Positions 50,656-59,839 of a stretch of 64,000 nucleotides of DNA are shown here, in pieces. How positions within the stretch are numbered: position 1 is the stretch's first letter; each line of letters starts with the position of its first letter. The notes under the pieces are model-generated. The model had not been told where the DNA came from, made no database searches, and saw only the letters and a program-made list of their open reading frames with translations. The stretch covers positions 3,100,001-3,164,000 of the forward strand of contig NZ_AP022586.1 in NCBI RefSeq assembly GCF_010731695.1. The letters are read 5' to 3'. Source of the stretch: Mycolicibacterium litorale (GTDB lineage Bacteria > Actinomycetota > Actinomycetes > Mycobacteriales > Mycobacteriaceae). The translations under genes were made by a program, and so were the position numbers.

Positions 50656-52251
50656 CTATTCATAGGCGCCCTCCACGTACCAGCGCCGCTGCCGGTAACA
50701 CAGCAGCAGCGCCGCCTGCCCCGTGCTGCCGTCGAGTAGCACCTGCGCCCGGGCGGTGCGGCCTTTGGCGCGGTCAGGGTCCCACCACCGTTCGTCGACC
50801 GGCCACGGTCCGGCCCACCACGCGAGGTCACCGCGATATCCCCCGCCGTCCAGACGCGCGGGCGAACCGGAGAACAGCCCGCGGTGGGTCACCCGCACCG
50901 GATTTCCCTCGGCGTCGAGCACCTCCACCGGATCGTCGAGCAGCACCGCGGGTGACGGTTCGGGCAGCTGCCCGGGCCACGGCTGTTGCGGATCGGCCTG
51001 CGGCACCGGCTCATCCCCGAACGCGGTGAAGGTGATCCGCTCGGCCGGACCGCGCCCACCGCTGAGCACCGGGACCTGCACCGCCTCCGGCCCGAGCAGA
51101 CCCTGCACGCGTACCAGCGCCCGGCGGGCGCGCAACCGGTCCTCCTCTCCGATGCCACCCCACAGCGGCAGCTGCAGCGCTTCGGCCGAGATCACCTCGA
51201 CCGGCCGCAACCGCAGCACGGTGATCGGTGCGGCGGGCCGGTCGTTGGGATTGCGCCGGTTCAGCCAGCCGTCGAGTTGCCAGCGCACCCGGTCCGCGGT
51301 GGCGTCCTCGGTCAGCGGCTCGGCGCACCGCCACACCCGCTCCAACTCCTTGCCGTCGGCGGTGACGGCGTGGATCGCCAACCGGGTGCAGCCGACCCCC
51401 GCCGACTCCAGGCTTCGGTGCAGTTCACCGGCCAGCGACCGGCCGGCGAACGCCGCGGCGTCCACCCGATCGATCGGCGGGTCGCAGTTGCGCACCGCGT
51501 CCAGTTCGGCCGGCGGTTCCCGGCCCGACGGCCCGCGGTCCGGCTCACCCCTGGCGAACCGGTGCGCAGCGACGGCGTCCGCCCCGAAGCGGGAGGCCAC
51601 ATCCGTCCGCGACAGCGCGGCGAACTGGCCGATGTGGCGAATCCCCATGCGCCACAGCAGGTCTGCAAGATCCTCGCGACCGGGTGCGGCCAGGCTGGGT
51701 TCGGTGGCCAGTTGCCGGATCGACAGCGCGGACAGGAAATCGGCGTCTTCGCCGGGCGCCACGATGCGGCCGGCGCGCGCGGCGAACACCGCCGTGGGCA
51801 GCTGATCGGCGATGCCGACCTGGCATTCCACCCCGGCCGCGGCGACCGCGTCGACCAACCGTTCGGCGGCTGCCTGTTCGGAGCCGAAGTACCGGGCCGC
51901 CCCGCGTACCGCCAGCACCAGCAGACCCGGCCGCAGCACCTCGGCGCGCGGCACCAGATCGTCCACCGCCGCCGTGACGTTCTCGAAGTGGCGGGCGTCG
52001 CGGGCCGGATCCGCCGGCGCGACGTGCAGCTGCGGACACCGAGCCTGCGACTCACGGCGCCGCAGCCCGCGCCGCACCCCCGCGGCGCGCGCCGAGGCCG
52101 AACACGCAATGACCCGGTTGGCCAGCGTCACCGCCACCGGCGCCGTCGGCGGCAGATTCGCCGCCGCGGCCGCCGCGACCGCGGGCCAGTCCATGCACCA
52201 GACGGCCAGCACCCGTGCGGCCTTCTGAGATGAGCGGGCCACGCTACTCAC
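50656..52251 (-). CDS. imuB: Mutasome protein ImuB (catalytically inactive Y-family polymerase-like)
   Basis: A 531-residue Y-family-like protein. The N-terminal palm begins [10 protein letters not shown] (the first Asp is kept), but the second acidic pair of active Y polymerases is replaced by RAEV at about 102-105, so polymerase activity is unlikely. A beta-clamp-binding motif QLPLWGG is visible at residues 360-366, followed by an extended C-terminal region that in mycobacteria binds DnaE2 and ImuA'. The GTG start overlaps the imuA' stop. It is cotranscribed with imuA' under the SOS box. Confidence 0.94.
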
Positions 52252-52951
52252 CGACCGCTCGGCCGGGACCGTAACCCCGGCCCCGTGCCCGCATCGTCAG
52301 CCGCACCCGGCTGATCCGTCCGCATCCCGGGGTGGGCGCCTGCGTCGGATCCGACGAGCCGGCGCCGACCACCTCGTAACCGCACACCCGGGCCTCCAAC
52401 CGGGCCGTCGCCCCGTGCCAGTCGCCGTCGGTGACCAGCAGAGTGCATCCCTTCTGCCGAGCCCGCGCCGTCACCGCCCTGGCCCGGCCCGCGGGCACCG
52501 AGCGCCCGCGCAGGCCGAGCACCACCAGATCCATCCCGTCCATGAGGACCGCCGCCACCTCCACCGGATCCCCGCCCGGGTCCGGGATGACGGCCAGCCT
52601 GCTGAGGTCGGCGCCCATCTCCACGGCGGCCAGCAGACCGACGTCGGGCTGGCCGACGATGGCGGCATGACCACCGGCCGCCGTCGTCGCCGCGACCATG
52701 CCCAACGGCAGGGACCGCGCCCCCGAGAGCACCGCGACCGTGCCGCGCGGCAACGACGTAGGCAGCTGCTCAGCCAGCGATTCGGGCAAGGGCAGCAAAC
52801 TTTCCACCACCGGTGACGGGTCAGCAGAGGGCGCGGGCCCCCGTCGACCGGACCCGACCTTGCCTGCCACCGCCGCCATCTGCTTTCGCAGGTGTTCGAC
52901 CTGCTCAGCGCGGGTAAGCTGAGCGTGCTCGAGGTGGGCCTCCGCTGTCAC
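52244..52951 (-). CDS. imuA': Mutasome accessory protein ImuA'
   Basis: A 235-residue RecA-like protein with a degenerate ATP site. [22 protein letters not shown] stands where a P loop would be (SGARSLPLG instead of GxxxxGKT). [14 protein letters not shown] text ([16 protein letters not shown]) and the Arg-rich C-terminal tail fit ImuA'. GGAGG lies seven bases before the GTG start. ImuA' and ImuB with DnaE2 are required for damage-induced mutagenesis in mycobacteria. A perfect SOS box is 36 bases upstream. Confidence 0.92.
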
Positions 52952-53073: not shown

Positions 53074-53124
53074 TGACAGTGACAAATGTTGTCATTGACA
53101 AATGTCACCATTCGTTGCTGTACT
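53074..53124 (+). promoter_or_regulatory. TGACA-repeat operator and promoter of the 53-58 kb operon
   Basis: The region holds a lone TGACA (53074-53078), a dyad TGACA-N5-TGTCA (53080-53094) and a second dyad TGACA-AA-TGTCA (53096-53107). TTGACA (53095-53100) is a perfect -35, with TGTACT (53119-53124) 18 bases on as a -10. Transcription would then start at about 53131, the GTG of the esterase gene, giving a leaderless mRNA. A repressor bound here would cover the -35. Confidence 0.55.
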
Positions 53125-53130
53125 CCAGAC

Positions 53131-54111
53131 GTGGCAACGATGCCCGCGCAGGGCTCTCTGCGCTCCCGCACCGCGGCGACAGTCAGCGGACTGACCCTGC
53201 GACAAATCAGCGCGGTGCTCCCGCCCGAACAGGCGTGGGGCCTGTGGCTCTCCCGCCAGATCGTCGCCCGCATCATGGCCGCTTTCGGCCCGTCCCTGTC
53301 CGGCGTCCGCGTCGACCCCGTGGACACCCACCTGACCGACGGCCGCCGCCTCATCGGCGAGTGGGTCCGCGGGCGCGGCGTCCCCACCGGGGCGCCGGAC
53401 CGGGCGCTCTACTACGTCCACGGCAGTGGGTATGCGCTGTGCTCGCCGCGCACCCACCGCAGGTTGACCGGATGGCTGTCGGCGGCGACCGGACTGCCGG
53501 TGTTCACCGTCGACTACCGCCTCGCACCGCGGCACCGCTTCCCCACCGCCGCAGACGATGTCCGCGCGGGCTGGGATTGGCTGATCGACGACCTCGGCGT
53601 GCCGCCGGGCCGCATGGTGATCGCCGGGGACTCCGCCGGCGGCCACCTGACGGTCGACCTCCTGCTGCAGACCGCCACCGCGCATCCGGCCGCCCTGGTG
53701 CTGCTCTCACCGCTGATCGACCTGACCTTCACCCGCGCCCGCGAGCGGGAACTGCTGCGCCGCGACCCGGCCATCCGCTCGCGTGACGCGATCCGGCTCG
53801 TCGAGTTGTACTGCGCGGCAGAACAACCGACGCACCCACGGTTGACGCTCGACGTGGTGACGGGCCGGCGGCTGCCCCCGACGCTGATCCAGGCCGGCGG
53901 AGCCGAGATGCTGGCCGGCGATGCGATCGCCCTCGCCGACGACATCCGGGCCGCGGGCGGAAGTTGTGAGCTGCAGGTGTGGCCGGATCAGGTGCACGTC
54001 TTTCAGGCACTACCCCGGTTGGCGCCCGAGGCCGTCCCCGCGATGCGCGAGATCACCGCATTCGTCGCCGACGCGCTGAGTGCCGGCGACGCCGACCGGG
54101 CGGTGAGCTGA
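53131..54111 (+). CDS. HSL-type alpha/beta hydrolase/esterase
   Basis: A 326-residue hormone-sensitive-lipase-family esterase. The oxyanion motif is YYVHGSGY (a variant of HGGG), the nucleophile is the Ser in GDSAGG, and the acid/base residues are in GGAEML and DQVHVFQ. DYRLAPRHRFPTAADD is the typical HSL strand 4. GTG 53131 fits the predicted transcript start; ATG 53140 three codons on is an alternative. First gene of the five-gene operon. A role in cleaving an ester made by the Baeyer-Villiger-type enzyme is likely from context. Confidence 0.88.
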   Translation: MATMPAQGSLRSRTAATVSGLTLRQISAVLPPEQAWGLWLSRQIVARIMAAFGPSLSGVRVDPVDTHLTDGRRLIGEWVRGRGVPTGAPDRALYYVHGSGYALCSPRTHRRLTGWLSAATGLPVFTVDYRLAPRHRFPTAADDVRAGWDWLIDDLGVPPGRMVIAGDSAGGHLTVDLLLQTATAHPAALVLLSPLIDLTFTRARERELLRRDPAIRSRDAIRLVELYCAAEQPTHPRLTLDVVTGRRLPPTLIQAGGAEMLAGDAIALADDIRAAGGSCELQVWPDQVHVFQALPRLAPEAVPAMREITAFVADALSAGDADRAVS

Positions 54112-54113
54112 CC

Positions 54114-54938
54114 ATGTGGGGCTCCGGCACCAAACGCAGCCGCAACGCCACCGCCGTCATCACCGGCGCGGGCAGCGGAATCGGCGCCGCGTTCGCCACC
54201 GAACTCGCCCGGCGCGGCGGCCGCGTGGTGTGCAGCGACATCGACACCGAATCGGCCGAGACCACCGCAGTGGCGATCCGGGATGGCGGCGGACACGCGA
54301 TCGCCGCCCACTGCGACGTGTCCCGAATCGACGATGTCAGGGAATTGGCTGACACCGCACAGGACTGGTTCGGTGGGCCGCCCTCCTTGGTCGTCAACAA
54401 CGCCGGCGTCGGCGCCGGTGGCACCCTCATCGGCGAGGTCAGCCTGGCCGACTGGAACTGGGTGCTCGGGATCAACCTGTGGGGACCCATCCACGGTTGC
54501 CACGTCTTCGCACCGCTCCTGCGCGATGCGCGGTCGGGTGGCATCATCAACGTCGCCTCGGCGGCCGCGTTCGGCGCCGCTCCCGGCATGGCGGCCTACA
54601 ACGTCAGCAAGGCTGGAGTCCTGTCCCTTTCGGAGACGCTGGCTGCCGAACTCAGCGGCACGGACGTCGCGGTCACCGCCCTGTGCCCGACATTCGTCAA
54701 GACCAACATCGTCGAGTCGGGCCGGATCACCAACGGTGCAACGCAAGTCGCCGACCGGCTGATGCGCTGGACCGGATTCTCCCCACAACGTGTGGCACGC
54801 ATGTGCCTCGACACCCATGACCGCGGCGGTCTGTACTGCATGCCGCAACTCGACGCCCGCTTCGGCTGGCACATCAAACGATTCGCGCCCGAGCTCTACA
54901 CCCGCGCGGTCGGACTGACCAAAGGAGGGATCGCCTGA
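54114..54938 (+). CDS. Short-chain dehydrogenase/reductase
   Basis: A 274-residue SDR with TGAGSGIG (cofactor site), NNAGVG, the catalytic Ser in NVASAA, YNVSK and a C-terminal extension of about 40 residues ending TKGGIA. It probably oxidises an alcohol or reduces a ketone. The ATG lies two bases after the esterase stop and the stop overlaps the next ATG (TGATG), so it is tightly coupled in the operon. Confidence 0.92.
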   Translation: MWGSGTKRSRNATAVITGAGSGIGAAFATELARRGGRVVCSDIDTESAETTAVAIRDGGGHAIAAHCDVSRIDDVRELADTAQDWFGGPPSLVVNNAGVGAGGTLIGEVSLADWNWVLGINLWGPIHGCHVFAPLLRDARSGGIINVASAAAFGAAPGMAAYNVSKAGVLSLSETLAAELSGTDVAVTALCPTFVKTNIVESGRITNGATQVADRLMRWTGFSPQRVARMCLDTHDRGGLYCMPQLDARFGWHIKRFAPELYTRAVGLTKGGIA

Positions 54939-55870
54939 TGGCCACCAAGACGAAGATCGACATGGACGCCATGCTCGCCAAGATCAAGGACCGGCAGTGG
55001 GCGCTGGCCGACATCGACTGGGACGCACCGGGCGCGGAGACCATCTCCGACGAGTTCCGGCCCAAACTCAAGGCCTTCATGGCCGACCTGTGCTGGATCG
55101 AGAACATCGGCGCCCGCGGTTTCGCGGCGCTGGCCAAGAAGGCTCCCACGCCGACCATCGCCGAGATCTACCGCTACTTTCACGCCGAGGAGCAGCGGCA
55201 CGCGAACGCCGAACTGGCGCTGATGAAGCGGTGGGGCATGCTCGACGGCAACGAGATGCCCGAGCCGAACGTCAACATCCGCCTGGCGATGGACTGGCTC
55301 GACCGGTACGCCGACGACATGCCGCTCTCGGTGCTGGGCACCGTCATCCCGATGCTCGAGGTGGCGCTGGACGGCGCCCTGCTCAAGTTCCTGCTCGAAG
55401 AGGTCGACGACCCGGTCTGCCATCAGGTGTTCGAGAAGATCAACAACGACGAGTCACGCCACATCGTCGTCGATTTCGAGGTCCTCGACATGATCGGACA
55501 TGCCACCGCGCGGCGGTTGGCGATCGAGTTCGTCGGCACCGTCGCCACCCCGGGACTGATCATCGGCGCGCTGATGTACATGCCGCTGCTCAACCGGATC
55601 CGCAACGAGATCGTCGGAATGGGCCTGGAACCGGAGCGGCTCTACAACGCGGTCAAGCGGTTCCAGCAACTCGGAGAACGCGGTGAGTCCAGTACCCGTG
55701 TTCCCGCCTACCGGGTGCTTCGACGGCATGCCGCGATGGTGGTCAACCCGCGCCACCCCTATCACCTGCTCGCGAACTCCATGGTGTGGGTGTCGGAACG
55801 CTATCCACGCAAGCTGCTGCGGCCCATCCCCAGCTGGTTCAAGGAACTGACCTACGAGCCGGCGGCCTGA
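54938..55870 (+). CDS. Carboxylate-bridged diiron protein (ferritin-like, AurF-like motif spacing)
   Basis: A 310-residue helical protein with two diiron half-sites: Glu55, then EE(84-85)QRH88; and Glu141, then DE(171-172)SRH175. The spacing E-X28/29-(D/E)EXXH, twice, is that of carboxylate-bridged diiron oxygenases and desaturases (AurF, acyl-ACP desaturase relatives) rather than electron carriers. The C-terminal 100 residues contain a hydrophobic stretch (GLIIGALMYMPLL), so membrane or lipid association is possible. A hydroxylase or desaturase role is inferred; the substrate is unknown. Coupled by TGATG to the SDR gene. Confidence 0.8.
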   Translation: MATKTKIDMDAMLAKIKDRQWALADIDWDAPGAETISDEFRPKLKAFMADLCWIENIGARGFAALAKKAPTPTIAEIYRYFHAEEQRHANAELALMKRWGMLDGNEMPEPNVNIRLAMDWLDRYADDMPLSVLGTVIPMLEVALDGALLKFLLEEVDDPVCHQVFEKINNDESRHIVVDFEVLDMIGHATARRLAIEFVGTVATPGLIIGALMYMPLLNRIRNEIVGMGLEPERLYNAVKRFQQLGERGESSTRVPAYRVLRRHAAMVVNPRHPYHLLANSMVWVSERYPRKLLRPIPSWFKELTYEPAA

Positions 55871-55871
55871 C

Positions 55872-57368
55872 ATGACCACGACACACGACACGCTCATCGT
55901 CGGCGCCGGATTCACCGGCATCGGTGCGGCCATCAAACTCCTGCGCGCCGGAGTCGACGACCTCGTGATCGTCGAACGTTCCGACCGGGTGGGCGGCACC
56001 TGGCGCGACAACACCTACCCCGGTGCCGCGTGCGACATCCCGTCACTGCTGTATTCGTTCTCGTTCGTGCGCAACCCGTCGTGGTCGCGGGCGTACTCGC
56101 CCGCCGCCGAGATCTGCGAGCACATCGAGACGATGGTCGACGACTTCGACGTCCGGCGCCGGATCCGGTTCGGCGTGGAAGTCAACGGGCTGGCTTTCGA
56201 CGAGGCGGCCGGCGTATGGACGGCGGACACGACGGCGGGAGAACAGTTCCGGGCACGTACGGTCGTCCTGGCCTCGGGTCCGCTGCCGGACCACAAGTGG
56301 CCCGACATCCGCGGCCTCGACAGCTACGAGGGCCACAAGATCCACAGCGCCCGCTGGGACCACGACTACGATTTCTCCGGCAAGCGGGTCGCGGTGATCG
56401 GCACCGGCGCCAGCGCCGTGCAGATCGTCCCCGAACTGGTCAAGCAGGCCGGTTTCGTCAAGGTCTTCCAACGCACCCCCGGCTGGGTGCTGCCCCGCCT
56501 CGACATGGCCACTCCCGCCGGGGCGCAGAACCTGTTCGCGAAAATCCCCGCAGTACAACAACTCGCGCGTCAAGCGCTGTTCTGGGGCCACGAGGTCAGC
56601 GCGACCGCGCTGGTATGGGACACCCCGCTGACCGGGCTCGTCGCGCGGCTCGGCAAGGCGCACCTGCACCGGCAGGTCAAGGATCCATGGCTGCGCAGGC
56701 AACTGACGCCCGACTTCACGCCCGGCTGCAAACGGATGCTCGTCTCCAGCGACTACTACCCGGCGCTGCAACAGGACAACTGCAAGCTGATCGACTGGCC
56801 GATCGCGACCATGAGCCCGGCCGGAATCCGGACCAGCGACGGGGTCGAGCACCACCTCGACTGCATCGTCTTCGCCACCGGCTTCGACGTCCACCTGACC
56901 GGACCGCCCTATCCGGTCACCGGCATCGGTGGTCGCTCCCTGGCCGATGAATGGTCCGGCGGCGCGCAGGCCTACAAGAGCATCAACGTCCACGGCTACC
57001 CCAACCTGTTCCTCATGACCGGCCCGAACTCCGGGCCGGGCCACAACTCGCTGCTGGTCTACGTCGAGGGGCAGCTCGACTACGCGGTGCGCGGCATCAC
57101 CACGCTGCTGGGCGAGAACCTGCGCTACCTCGACGTGCACGCTGACGTGCAACGCCGCTTCAACCAGCGGATCCAGCGTCGCCTCGGGAAGACGACATGG
57201 ATGTCGGGGTGCAGCAGCTGGTACCTGACCGCCGACGGGTTCAACGCGTCGATGTACCCCGGGTTCGCCACCCAGTATCTTCGACAGATGCGGGACTTCC
57301 GGTTCGGCGACTACGACGCGGTCGCTCTCGATACACACACCGGTGTCGACACTCGCATCCGGGCGTGA
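55872..57368 (+). CDS. Baeyer-Villiger-type flavin monooxygenase
   Basis: A 498-residue class B flavoprotein. The FAD site is GAGFTGIG, then VGGTWRDNTYPGAACD (typical of BVMOs). The NADPH site is IGTGASAVQI. The BVMO fingerprint (FxGxxxH(T/S)xxW(P/D)) is present as YEGHKIHSARWD at about 153-164, with Tyr for the first Phe. Such enzymes insert oxygen next to a ketone to form an ester or lactone. Its ATG is one base after the diiron gene, and its stop overlaps the MerR GTG (GTGA). Confidence 0.93.
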   Translation: MTTTHDTLIVGAGFTGIGAAIKLLRAGVDDLVIVERSDRVGGTWRDNTYPGAACDIPSLLYSFSFVRNPSWSRAYSPAAEICEHIETMVDDFDVRRRIRFGVEVNGLAFDEAAGVWTADTTAGEQFRARTVVLASGPLPDHKWPDIRGLDSYEGHKIHSARWDHDYDFSGKRVAVIGTGASAVQIVPELVKQAGFVKVFQRTPGWVLPRLDMATPAGAQNLFAKIPAVQQLARQALFWGHEVSATALVWDTPLTGLVARLGKAHLHRQVKDPWLRRQLTPDFTPGCKRMLVSSDYYPALQQDNCKLIDWPIATMSPAGIRTSDGVEHHLDCIVFATGFDVHLTGPPYPVTGIGGRSLADEWSGGAQAYKSINVHGYPNLFLMTGPNSGPGHNSLLVYVEGQLDYAVRGITTLLGENLRYLDVHADVQRRFNQRIQRRLGKTTWMSGCSSWYLTADGFNASMYPGFATQYLRQMRDFRFGDYDAVALDTHTGVDTRIRA

Positions 57369-58279
57369 CCGAGCAGCCCGCCGAGCGCCACCAGGCGGGT
57401 GCCATCTCGGCGATCCTCGGCGGGCTGCGCCGCGCGCCGCGCCGCGTCCGCCGTGGCTCGCGCGACGTCGTCGAGAACGCCGTCTCCCAACTGTTCGACG
57501 CCGCGGTGCGCCAGTCGCAGGCGGAGACGTCGTCGGGTGAGTACCGCCTCGACGACCTGGCTCGGCTGGCCGGCACCACGACCAGGAACATCCGTGTCTA
57601 CCGCGACCGCGGCCTGCTGCACCCTCCGCTGCGGGTCGGCCGGATCGCGCTGTTCAACGACACCCACCTGACCCGGCTGCGGCTGATCACGTCGATGCTC
57701 GACCGTGGCTACAACATCTCCCACGTGCACGAGATGCTGTCGGCCTGGGAGCAGGGCAAGGATCTCGGAGACGTCCTGGGCCTGGAGAACGCGATCGCCG
57801 GCACGTGGGCCGCGGAAAAGCCGCAGTCGATGCCGTTGGCCGAGGCCGCGAAGCTGATCGACGACGAGAAGGCGTTCGACCGCATGGTCGGCCTCAACCT
57901 GATCCGCGTGGACGGCGACACGGCGACCGTGATGCGGCCGAAGCTGCTCGAGGCGTTCCGCGAGATCCGCGAATACGGCGTCACCGCCGACAAACTCATC
58001 GACATCCACGTGGCGGTGCTGCCGCTGGTCGATCAGATCAGCACGATCCTCGTTCAGGCCGGGGCCGAACAGGTGCAGGACATCATCAAGCCCGGAGCGT
58101 CGCTGCCCGACGACACCGAGGTCGCCGAGTTGATCACCATGCTGGTGCGGTTCCGCACGCAGGCGGTCGCGACGGTCGCGGCGACGCTGGCCACGTCGAT
58201 CGAGTCGACGATCGAGGGACTGGTCAGCCACATGCTGGCGGACTTCATCGAACAGGCCGCCGAACCCGAGGAGGGGTGA
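57365..58279 (+). CDS. MerR-family regulator
   Basis: A 304-residue regulator. The MerR winged helix is YRLDDLARLAGTTTRNIRVYRDRGLL by landmarks (LARLAG, then VYRDRGLL) at about 59-85. A coiled-coil segment follows, and the last 180 residues are an unrecognised helical effector domain longer than usual. The N-terminal 50 residues are Arg-rich. It is the last gene of the operon it probably controls, coupled by GTGA to the monooxygenase and abutting the guaA stop. The TGACA operator does not have the elongated MerR -35/-10 spacer, so it could act as a repressor or the operator may belong to another protein. Confidence 0.88.
   Translation: MTEQPAERHQAGAISAILGGLRRAPRRVRRGSRDVVENAVSQLFDAAVRQSQAETSSGEYRLDDLARLAGTTTRNIRVYRDRGLLHPPLRVGRIALFNDTHLTRLRLITSMLDRGYNISHVHEMLSAWEQGKDLGDVLGLENAIAGTWAAEKPQSMPLAEAAKLIDDEKAFDRMVGLNLIRVDGDTATVMRPKLLEAFREIREYGVTADKLIDIHVAVLPLVDQISTILVQAGAEQVQDIIKPGASLPDDTEVAELITMLVRFRTQAVATVAATLATSIESTIEGLVSHMLADFIEQAAEPEEG

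Positions 58280-59839
<1,560 letters not shown>

Follow-up and report, generated by a model that had tools for sequence, protein, structure and literature searches.

A five-gene cassette in Mycolicibacterium litorale raises the question of whether its enzymes simply act in turn on one substrate, or whether two of them form a working pair. It lies in a 64,000-nucleotide (nt) stretch of DNA (contig NZ_AP022586.1, positions 3,100,001 to 3,164,000; hereafter the window, whose numbering is used throughout). The two proteins are a predicted R2-like diiron protein (DII; 54938..55870, + strand) and a type I Baeyer-Villiger-type monooxygenase (BVMO; 55872..57368, + strand). The gene order on the + strand is HSL-family esterase, short-chain dehydrogenase/reductase (SDR), DII, BVMO and MerR-family regulator, and the junctions range from -4 to +2 nt. 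We consider it evenly balanced whether DII and BVMO are a pair in a predicted route that is likely MerR-controlled, the NADPH-domain region of the BVMO being kept with DII after its catalytic motifs have gone. DII and this region are the core that stays together; the SDR and above all the esterase are held more loosely.

Type I BVMOs are marked by a FAD-binding GxGxxG, the fingerprint FxGxxxHxxxW(P/D), an NADPH-binding GxGxxG/A and an active-site Arg. The window protein has GAGFTGIG, YEGHKIHSARWD (with Y for F), GTGASA, GCKR and ATGFD, so that the BVMO fingerprint noted in a preliminary description of this DNA is indeed present. It scores 48.5 bits against the FMO-like family (Pfam cut-off 22) and matches phenylacetone monooxygenase (PAMO) at 1e-76 with all motifs intact, but unlike PAMO and other type I BVMOs it adds a W/C/WPIA signature and has relatives stripped to the NADPH-domain part. 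The two E-X28/29-(D/E)EXXH sites previously proposed for DII were confirmed as E55/E85/H88 and E141/E172/H175, with the spacings E55-X29-E85xxH88 and E141-X30-E172xxH175. Loss of these ligands in homologues, which the preliminary description had named as grounds for abandoning its proposal, was not seen, all six being invariant in 22/22 aligned proteins (the window's and 21 relatives at 52-89% identity). DII passes no Pfam cut-off (Rubrerythrin, PF02915, 21.7 versus 22.8 bits; AurF, PF11583, 16.9 bits versus a gathering score of 29.6) and has neither an NCBIfam model match nor a convincing PDB sequence match. It does have the two Glu...ExxH helix pairs in a four-helix core that characterise the ferritin-like/R2-like diiron superfamily. 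In the predicted model its fold is R2-like, the best matches among those listed being R2, R2-like ligand-binding oxidase and VlmB. Identity to R2-like ligand-binding oxidase, ribonucleotide reductase R2 and AurF/VlmB is only 8-13%, and the likeness to R2-like ligand-binding oxidase, an enzyme marked by a Mn/Fe cofactor, a bound fatty acid and an ether cross-link, is one of modelled fold only. A hydrophobic segment of DII, earlier taken to suggest a lipid or terpenoid substrate, corresponds in the model to one helix (205-227) of the R2-like bundle and is uninformative on substrate. DII is likely the oxygenase of the route.

Linkage between DII and BVMO was followed in 141 DII loci, comprising an 80-locus set (the best 80 of 163 DII relatives, from a scan of genome contigs) together with L011, L112-L114, L115-L123 and L154-L201. 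These are loci and not distinct genomes (L154 shares a genome with L020, and several genomes contribute two or three loci each), and 40 of the added loci were chosen for divergence among the matches listed in the genus sample, not at random. In 141/141 loci (80 + 61) DII is followed by a BVMO-derived gene. The gap from DII to the next start is -4 nt in 54/141 and 1-4 nt in 63/141 by an automatic pick of the following gene that took the wrong frame for L019 and L158. Using a profile of the shortened BVMOs described below, we found DII and a strong match together in 174 of 401 family genomes, DII alone in 8, a match alone in 1 and neither in 218. Strong matches thus occur in 174/182 genomes with DII versus 1/219 without (Fisher 7e-103, ignoring shared descent), where strong means a best E of about 1e-48 or lower, a cut placed after a gap in the scores had been seen. 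The scan scored at most nine candidates per genome, which explains some misses; on inspection, 6 of the 8 DII-only genomes carry a signature BVMO after DII, the other two being G928 and G633. The sole match without DII, in G874, is a 402-codon frame. In G928 (C1:2993179-2994086) DII runs over two frames and the adjoining BVMO remnant is seemingly broken, so the pair seems to decay together. In G832 (C1:4102014-4102315) DII is also broken over two frames, yet the genome was counted among those with both.

The part of the BVMO that persists is defined by stripped forms. In 11 genomes the BVMO relative is a mini-BVMO of 169-194 residues without a FAD domain or an intact GCKR; tested as type I BVMOs the minis failed, since FAD motifs are absent and GCKR is broken in 11/11, with Lys lost in 11 and Arg in 9. 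M. parafortuitum and M. vaccae have a cassette reduced to DII, a BVMO piece of 169-174 residues and MerR. The same piece (BVMO residues ~146-336; 146-336 corresponds to 56307..56879, + strand, in the window) stands directly after DII in G572, G428 and seven more genomes of G428's genus, with a second, full BVMO behind it in that genus. Across eight species of the genus the mini overlaps the DII stop by ATGA, and the ratio of nonsynonymous to synonymous substitution rates (dN/dS) is 0.07-0.48 over their 28 pairs. A predicted mini model has ten-residue blocks from 11 to 160 at pLDDT 77-94, and its fold matches the BVMO NADPH-domain region at E 1e-11. From dN/dS, the ATGA coupling and the confident predicted fold, the minis look functional. 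Nine were recognisable by a short match among the matches listed in the 401-genome scan, and 9/9 adjoin DII; in L020 and L028 the cassette holds no BVMO besides the mini. Differences in synteny suggest that minis may have arisen independently. Five other genomes have, upstream of DII, a degenerate BVMO and the esterase in a single frame, which counted from its earliest possible start spans 673-778 codons; DII is followed there by an intact BVMO of another clade that lacks the signature. These fusions (L163:4814-6832, - strand; L162, L165, L167 and L168; one of the five scanned with Pfam) keep the FAD GxGxxG and have lost the ACDIPS, GCKR and ATG motifs. Two loci of G071 encode full-length BVMOs with wrecked motifs, GGTWxxN having become SCSPHRS and GCKR having become GDRPL.

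The persisting region contains the DII-partner signature (56688..56852, + strand), made up of W273, C304, W309-P-I-A312, P316, R320, E326 and H327. We compared alignment columns among 119 partner BVMOs, 11 minis and 10 other BVMOs, with L154, L120, L034, L042 and L019 dropped beforehand and L162, L163, L165, L167, L168, L191 and L194 set apart as alternative forms. W273, C304 and W309 have frequencies of 1.00 in partners, 1.00 in minis and 0.00 in the others; A312, P316, R320 and E326 reach at least 0.97, at least 0.91 and at most 0.20, respectively, and H327 0.99, 1.00 and 0.50. The reverse holds for R201, T202, K287 and Q184, which are at 1.00 in partners, 0.00 in minis and at least 0.90 in the others (R201, T202 and K287 at 1.00, 0.90 and 1.00), and R288 is at 1.00, 0.18 and 1.00. 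Thus partner columns stay while most catalytic columns go. The W/C/WPIA signature was found in 141/141 DII loci, in 130 after DII by a six-frame pattern, in 5 upstream within the fusions and in 6 with LKP for LTP, and its core occurred in 0/34 non-partner BVMO-like open reading frames (ORFs) of the loci searched. Eleven "non-adjacent" signature ORFs comprise the five fusions and six partners that escaped the distance rule, being either stop-to-stop frames extended upstream or the C-terminal part of frameshifted L042, and eight "adjacent" ORFs without the signature comprise seven second BVMOs (L159, L161, L162, L163, L165, L167 and L168) and the N-terminal piece of the frameshifted L034 BVMO. 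In L034 (M. asiaticum DSM 44297) and L042 the BVMO frame is in two pieces, through mutation or assembly error. We infer from these comparisons that the signature domain would be DII's partner.

How such a pair might work can be put forward only tentatively. DII would be the oxygenase, fed by a reductase of the ferredoxin-NADP-reductase type. The BVMO signature region would dock on or gate DII, as small effector proteins do with other diiron oxygenases. Active BVMOs would both dock and catalyse the Baeyer-Villiger step, allowing the intermediate to be passed on; MerR would act at a dyad upstream of the cassette; and the best guess for the substrate would be a medium or long aliphatic chain. A bolder reading, to which we give somewhat less than an even chance, is a new two-component diiron oxygenase in which a BVMO was recruited as an effector or docking subunit, with active BVMOs doing both jobs and channelling the ketone; in some lineages the BVMO would have been pared to a pseudoenzyme (a mini without flavin, a wrecked full-length form or an esterase fusion) with no task left but to serve DII. 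If the BVMO relative is indeed a partner of DII, an iron oxygenase would have gained a subunit from a flavoenzyme, which in some species has lost its flavin domain, and the annotation of BVMOs beside DII genes would change. In the open literature we found no report pairing a Baeyer-Villiger monooxygenase with a ferritin-like or diiron partner, or describing a Baeyer-Villiger pseudoenzyme.

Several observations weigh against a DII-BVMO pair of this kind. Most partner BVMOs belong to a single clade, and common descent may account for part of the signature; given this caveat, its retention in the stripped forms is the sole argument that it is functional. The 10 other BVMOs in the column comparison include two near-identical pairs and amount to about 8 independent sequences. 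The glycines of the NADPH motif are retained in 0.91 and 0.82 of minis, and 2/11 minis (L020 and L115) still align Arg at position 288. The type-1 minis, those of M. parafortuitum and M. vaccae, evolve faster than DII (dN/dS 0.40 versus 0.068), as decay would produce. An approximately unbiased test did not reject a single origin of minis (p 0.475) on a tree of 38 of 54 rows, which left out L019 (wrong frame), L115 (very long branch) and 14 others. The signature protein of five loci lies upstream, fused to the esterase, instead of beside DII, and G633 has an intact DII frame with only a frameshifted, shrunken BVMO remnant lacking the signature. Finally, the window's cassette has no reductase gene, the nearest homologues (53-54%) lying elsewhere in the genome, at C1:5085402-5086445 and C1:4015670-4016668.

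The alternative that survives best, although we regard it as unlikely, is that DII, SDR, BVMO and the esterase each work independently in a linear subterminal oxidation, and that minis and degenerate BVMOs are remnants still open because the DNA is GC-rich. With or without a DII-BVMO pair, the cassette is predicted to hydroxylate a hydrocarbon or lipid chain, form a ketone from the alcohol, convert it to an ester by oxygen insertion and hydrolyse the ester. We retain this pathway idea, which accounts most simply for the four enzyme classes. Its reaction logic fits the subterminal pathway of hydroxylation, oxidation, insertion and hydrolysis described for Thalassolituus oleivorans on C28 (PMC6304351, in excerpt). 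The same BVMO, esterase and dehydrogenase classes and step order recur in excerpted accounts of alkane oxidation by T. oleivorans and by Rhodococcus erythropolis XP, with BVMO_4041 (PMC6304351, PMC12724338). Compared with the T. oleivorans pathway as excerpted, the cassette has an in-operon diiron protein of no named family that is tied to the BVMO (PMC6304351). That study reported no specific subterminal hydroxylase (PMC6304351). The present cassette provides a candidate, and its operon has a clean predicted operator. The oxidative cleavage proposed in the preliminary description stands as plausible step logic in keeping with PMC6304351; its term "complete" does not hold for a fixed unit, with the esterase missing by score thresholds in 23/80 loci and the SDR in 4/80. 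The fast evolution of type-1 minis and the real decay in G633, G928 and G832 favour independent enzymes. Against this, eight species belonging to a single other genus retain a mini in the same position, coupled by ATGA and with dN/dS under 0.5; the signature is retained while catalytic columns vanish; the mini fold is confidently predicted; and esterase fusions occur in five genomes. A simple pathway leaves unexplained that the BVMO slot tied to DII is non-catalytic in several relatives.

Less probable still is an envelope role, in which the cassette would be akin to the mymA operon and would modify cell-envelope lipids instead of breaking down a growth substrate. The mymA operon has a BVMO, the HSL esterase LipR, the SDR SadH, the regulator VirS, other neighbours and no diiron gene; the three enzyme families are shared, but the window's diiron gene and MerR set its cassette apart from mymA itself. 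Further points in favour are that one address serves many loci and that clusters of type 2 contain FadD, acyl-CoA dehydrogenase and SCP2 genes. Excerpts of PMC9044951 also link mymA to lipid and mycolic acid metabolism. The distribution of DII is at odds with an envelope role: it is patchy, being present in 131/198 genomes of a genus sample (182/401 of a family sample and 10/396 of a phylum sample), and it occurs on plasmids, which fits an accessory or catabolic trait. Synthesis of wax-ester mycolates, which arise by Baeyer-Villiger oxidation of keto-mycolates, was tentatively discarded, given that two producers of such mycolates, M. vaccae and M. parafortuitum, have lost the full BVMO at the locus. 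A rubrerythrin-like role for DII, as an accessory oxidase or peroxide scavenger protecting or maturing the BVMO rather than a pathway hydroxylase, would suit its sub-threshold Rubrerythrin and AurF matches and its strict tie to a BVMO relative but is very doubtful, since DII persists beside minis that lack a FAD domain and hence a flavin to make peroxide, the L020 and L028 cassettes hold no other BVMO, and the best fold matches among those listed are R2, R2-like ligand-binding oxidase and VlmB.

The contrast between a tight DII-BVMO core and looser companions is apparent in the 80-locus set, where presence counts rest on score thresholds and a few loci are cut by contig ends. DII is present in 80, MerR in 79, BVMO in 78, SDR in 76 and HSL in 57; the esterase is below threshold in 23/80 and the SDR in 4/80 with the DII gene still there. 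The co-occurrence check called for at the outset found all five families in 55/80 loci. Core gene order is constant while flanks change between groups, at several genomic addresses, and guaA and imuA' are each within reach in 43 of 80. Recurrence of the five-gene set in 55/80 loci at several addresses places it beyond chance, and the five gene types also stand in the window's order on a Tsukamurella plasmid. L061 and L095 (Nocardioides, Marmoricola) are 80-81% identical to the window in DII, 65-69% in SDR and BVMO and 43-45% in HSL and MerR; with 80-81% versus 43-69% for the others, DII is the most constrained cassette gene.

Upstream of the first gene lies an 18-bp dyad, TGNCATTGACNAATGNCA (53090..53107, + strand), a candidate MerR operator. 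It is common to the upstream regions of related loci and, with no more than 1 mismatch allowed, occurs once in the 5,579,510-base genome; 70 of the 80 loci have it in the 400 nt before the cassette, with 0 other sites in their 1.29 Mb on both strands. Allowing up to 2 mismatches, we found it in 104/106 loci scored as having MerR versus 4/33 scored as lacking it (139 loci; Fisher 2.6e-23, ignoring shared descent), and random 360-nt pieces from the same loci matched in 32/2000 draws, some containing the real site. Three of the four loci scored as lacking MerR (L020, L028 and L154) actually carry one missed by the distance rule, and in the fourth, L117, the next called gene is a cation-efflux gene. 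A predicted promoter (53095..53124, + strand) consists of TTGACA at 53095-53100, an 18-nt spacer and TGTACT at 53119-53124; relatives have a similar layout upstream, and the -10 is weak. Given TTGACA within the dyad, TGTACT after a further 18 nt and GTG at 53131, the transcript would begin at about 53131 and so is likely leaderless. The dyad is centred on the predicted -35, outside the -35/-10 spacer in which MerR sites usually lie in the promoters they control; we read it as the candidate operator of the cassette MerR. A divergent gene resembling ferredoxin-NADP reductase was present in 7 of the 50 loci listed (L112 from Tsukamurella, L176, L180, L186, L199, L200 and L201), with FAD, NAD and 2Fe-2S domains by Pfam in L112, the one scanned. 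The dyad lies between this gene and the cassette in 7/7, a placement that we read as a putative MerR operator also driving electron supply in some relatives.

The remaining genes of the window's cassette conform to the families first proposed, all five of which were borne out by Pfam save that DII was recognised by ligands and fold only. The esterase (53131..54111, + strand; start GTG 53131 or ATG 53140) scores 152.8 bits for Abhydrolase_3 (cut-off 25) with its Ser in GDSAGG, as expected of an HSL esterase, and reaches no NCBIfam subfamily cut-off. The SDR (54114..54938, + strand) scores 147.9 bits for adh_short (cut-off 26.6), and the regulator (57365..58279, + strand; GTG start) 64.8 bits for the MerR_1 helix-turn-helix (cut-off 21.6). 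Coupling by TGATG and GTGA overlaps, said to join the genes, was found at two of the four junctions, SDR/DII (TGATG) and BVMO/MerR (GTGA); HSL/SDR and DII/BVMO are gaps of 2 and 1 nt. The flanking ORFs, 52244-52951 and 58280-59839 (both - strand), are presumably imuA' and guaA.

Genes outside the cassette (an Sbt transporter, a chorismate-binding enzyme, a subtilase-like protein and a fatty acid desaturase) were not counted as members, as they differ between addresses. The desaturase gene (PF03405, scanned in L038 only; L038:11820-12833) lies just past the cassette in a group of slow growers, and its cluster, c19, has 12 genes among the 80 loci. M. litorale itself carries a second copy of SDR-DII-BVMO at C1:1143030-1146171. 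It lies within a second DII cluster (C1:1141167-1151960; L011:3168-13961) with a PF10118 "metal-dependent hydrolase", TetR, SDR-DII-BVMO-BVMO-esterase-BVMO and a P450. This cluster closely resembles plasmid pMYCCH.01 of M. chubuense NBB4, the DII being 99% identical, and plasmids of M. aubagnense and M. chubuense bear the same cluster type.

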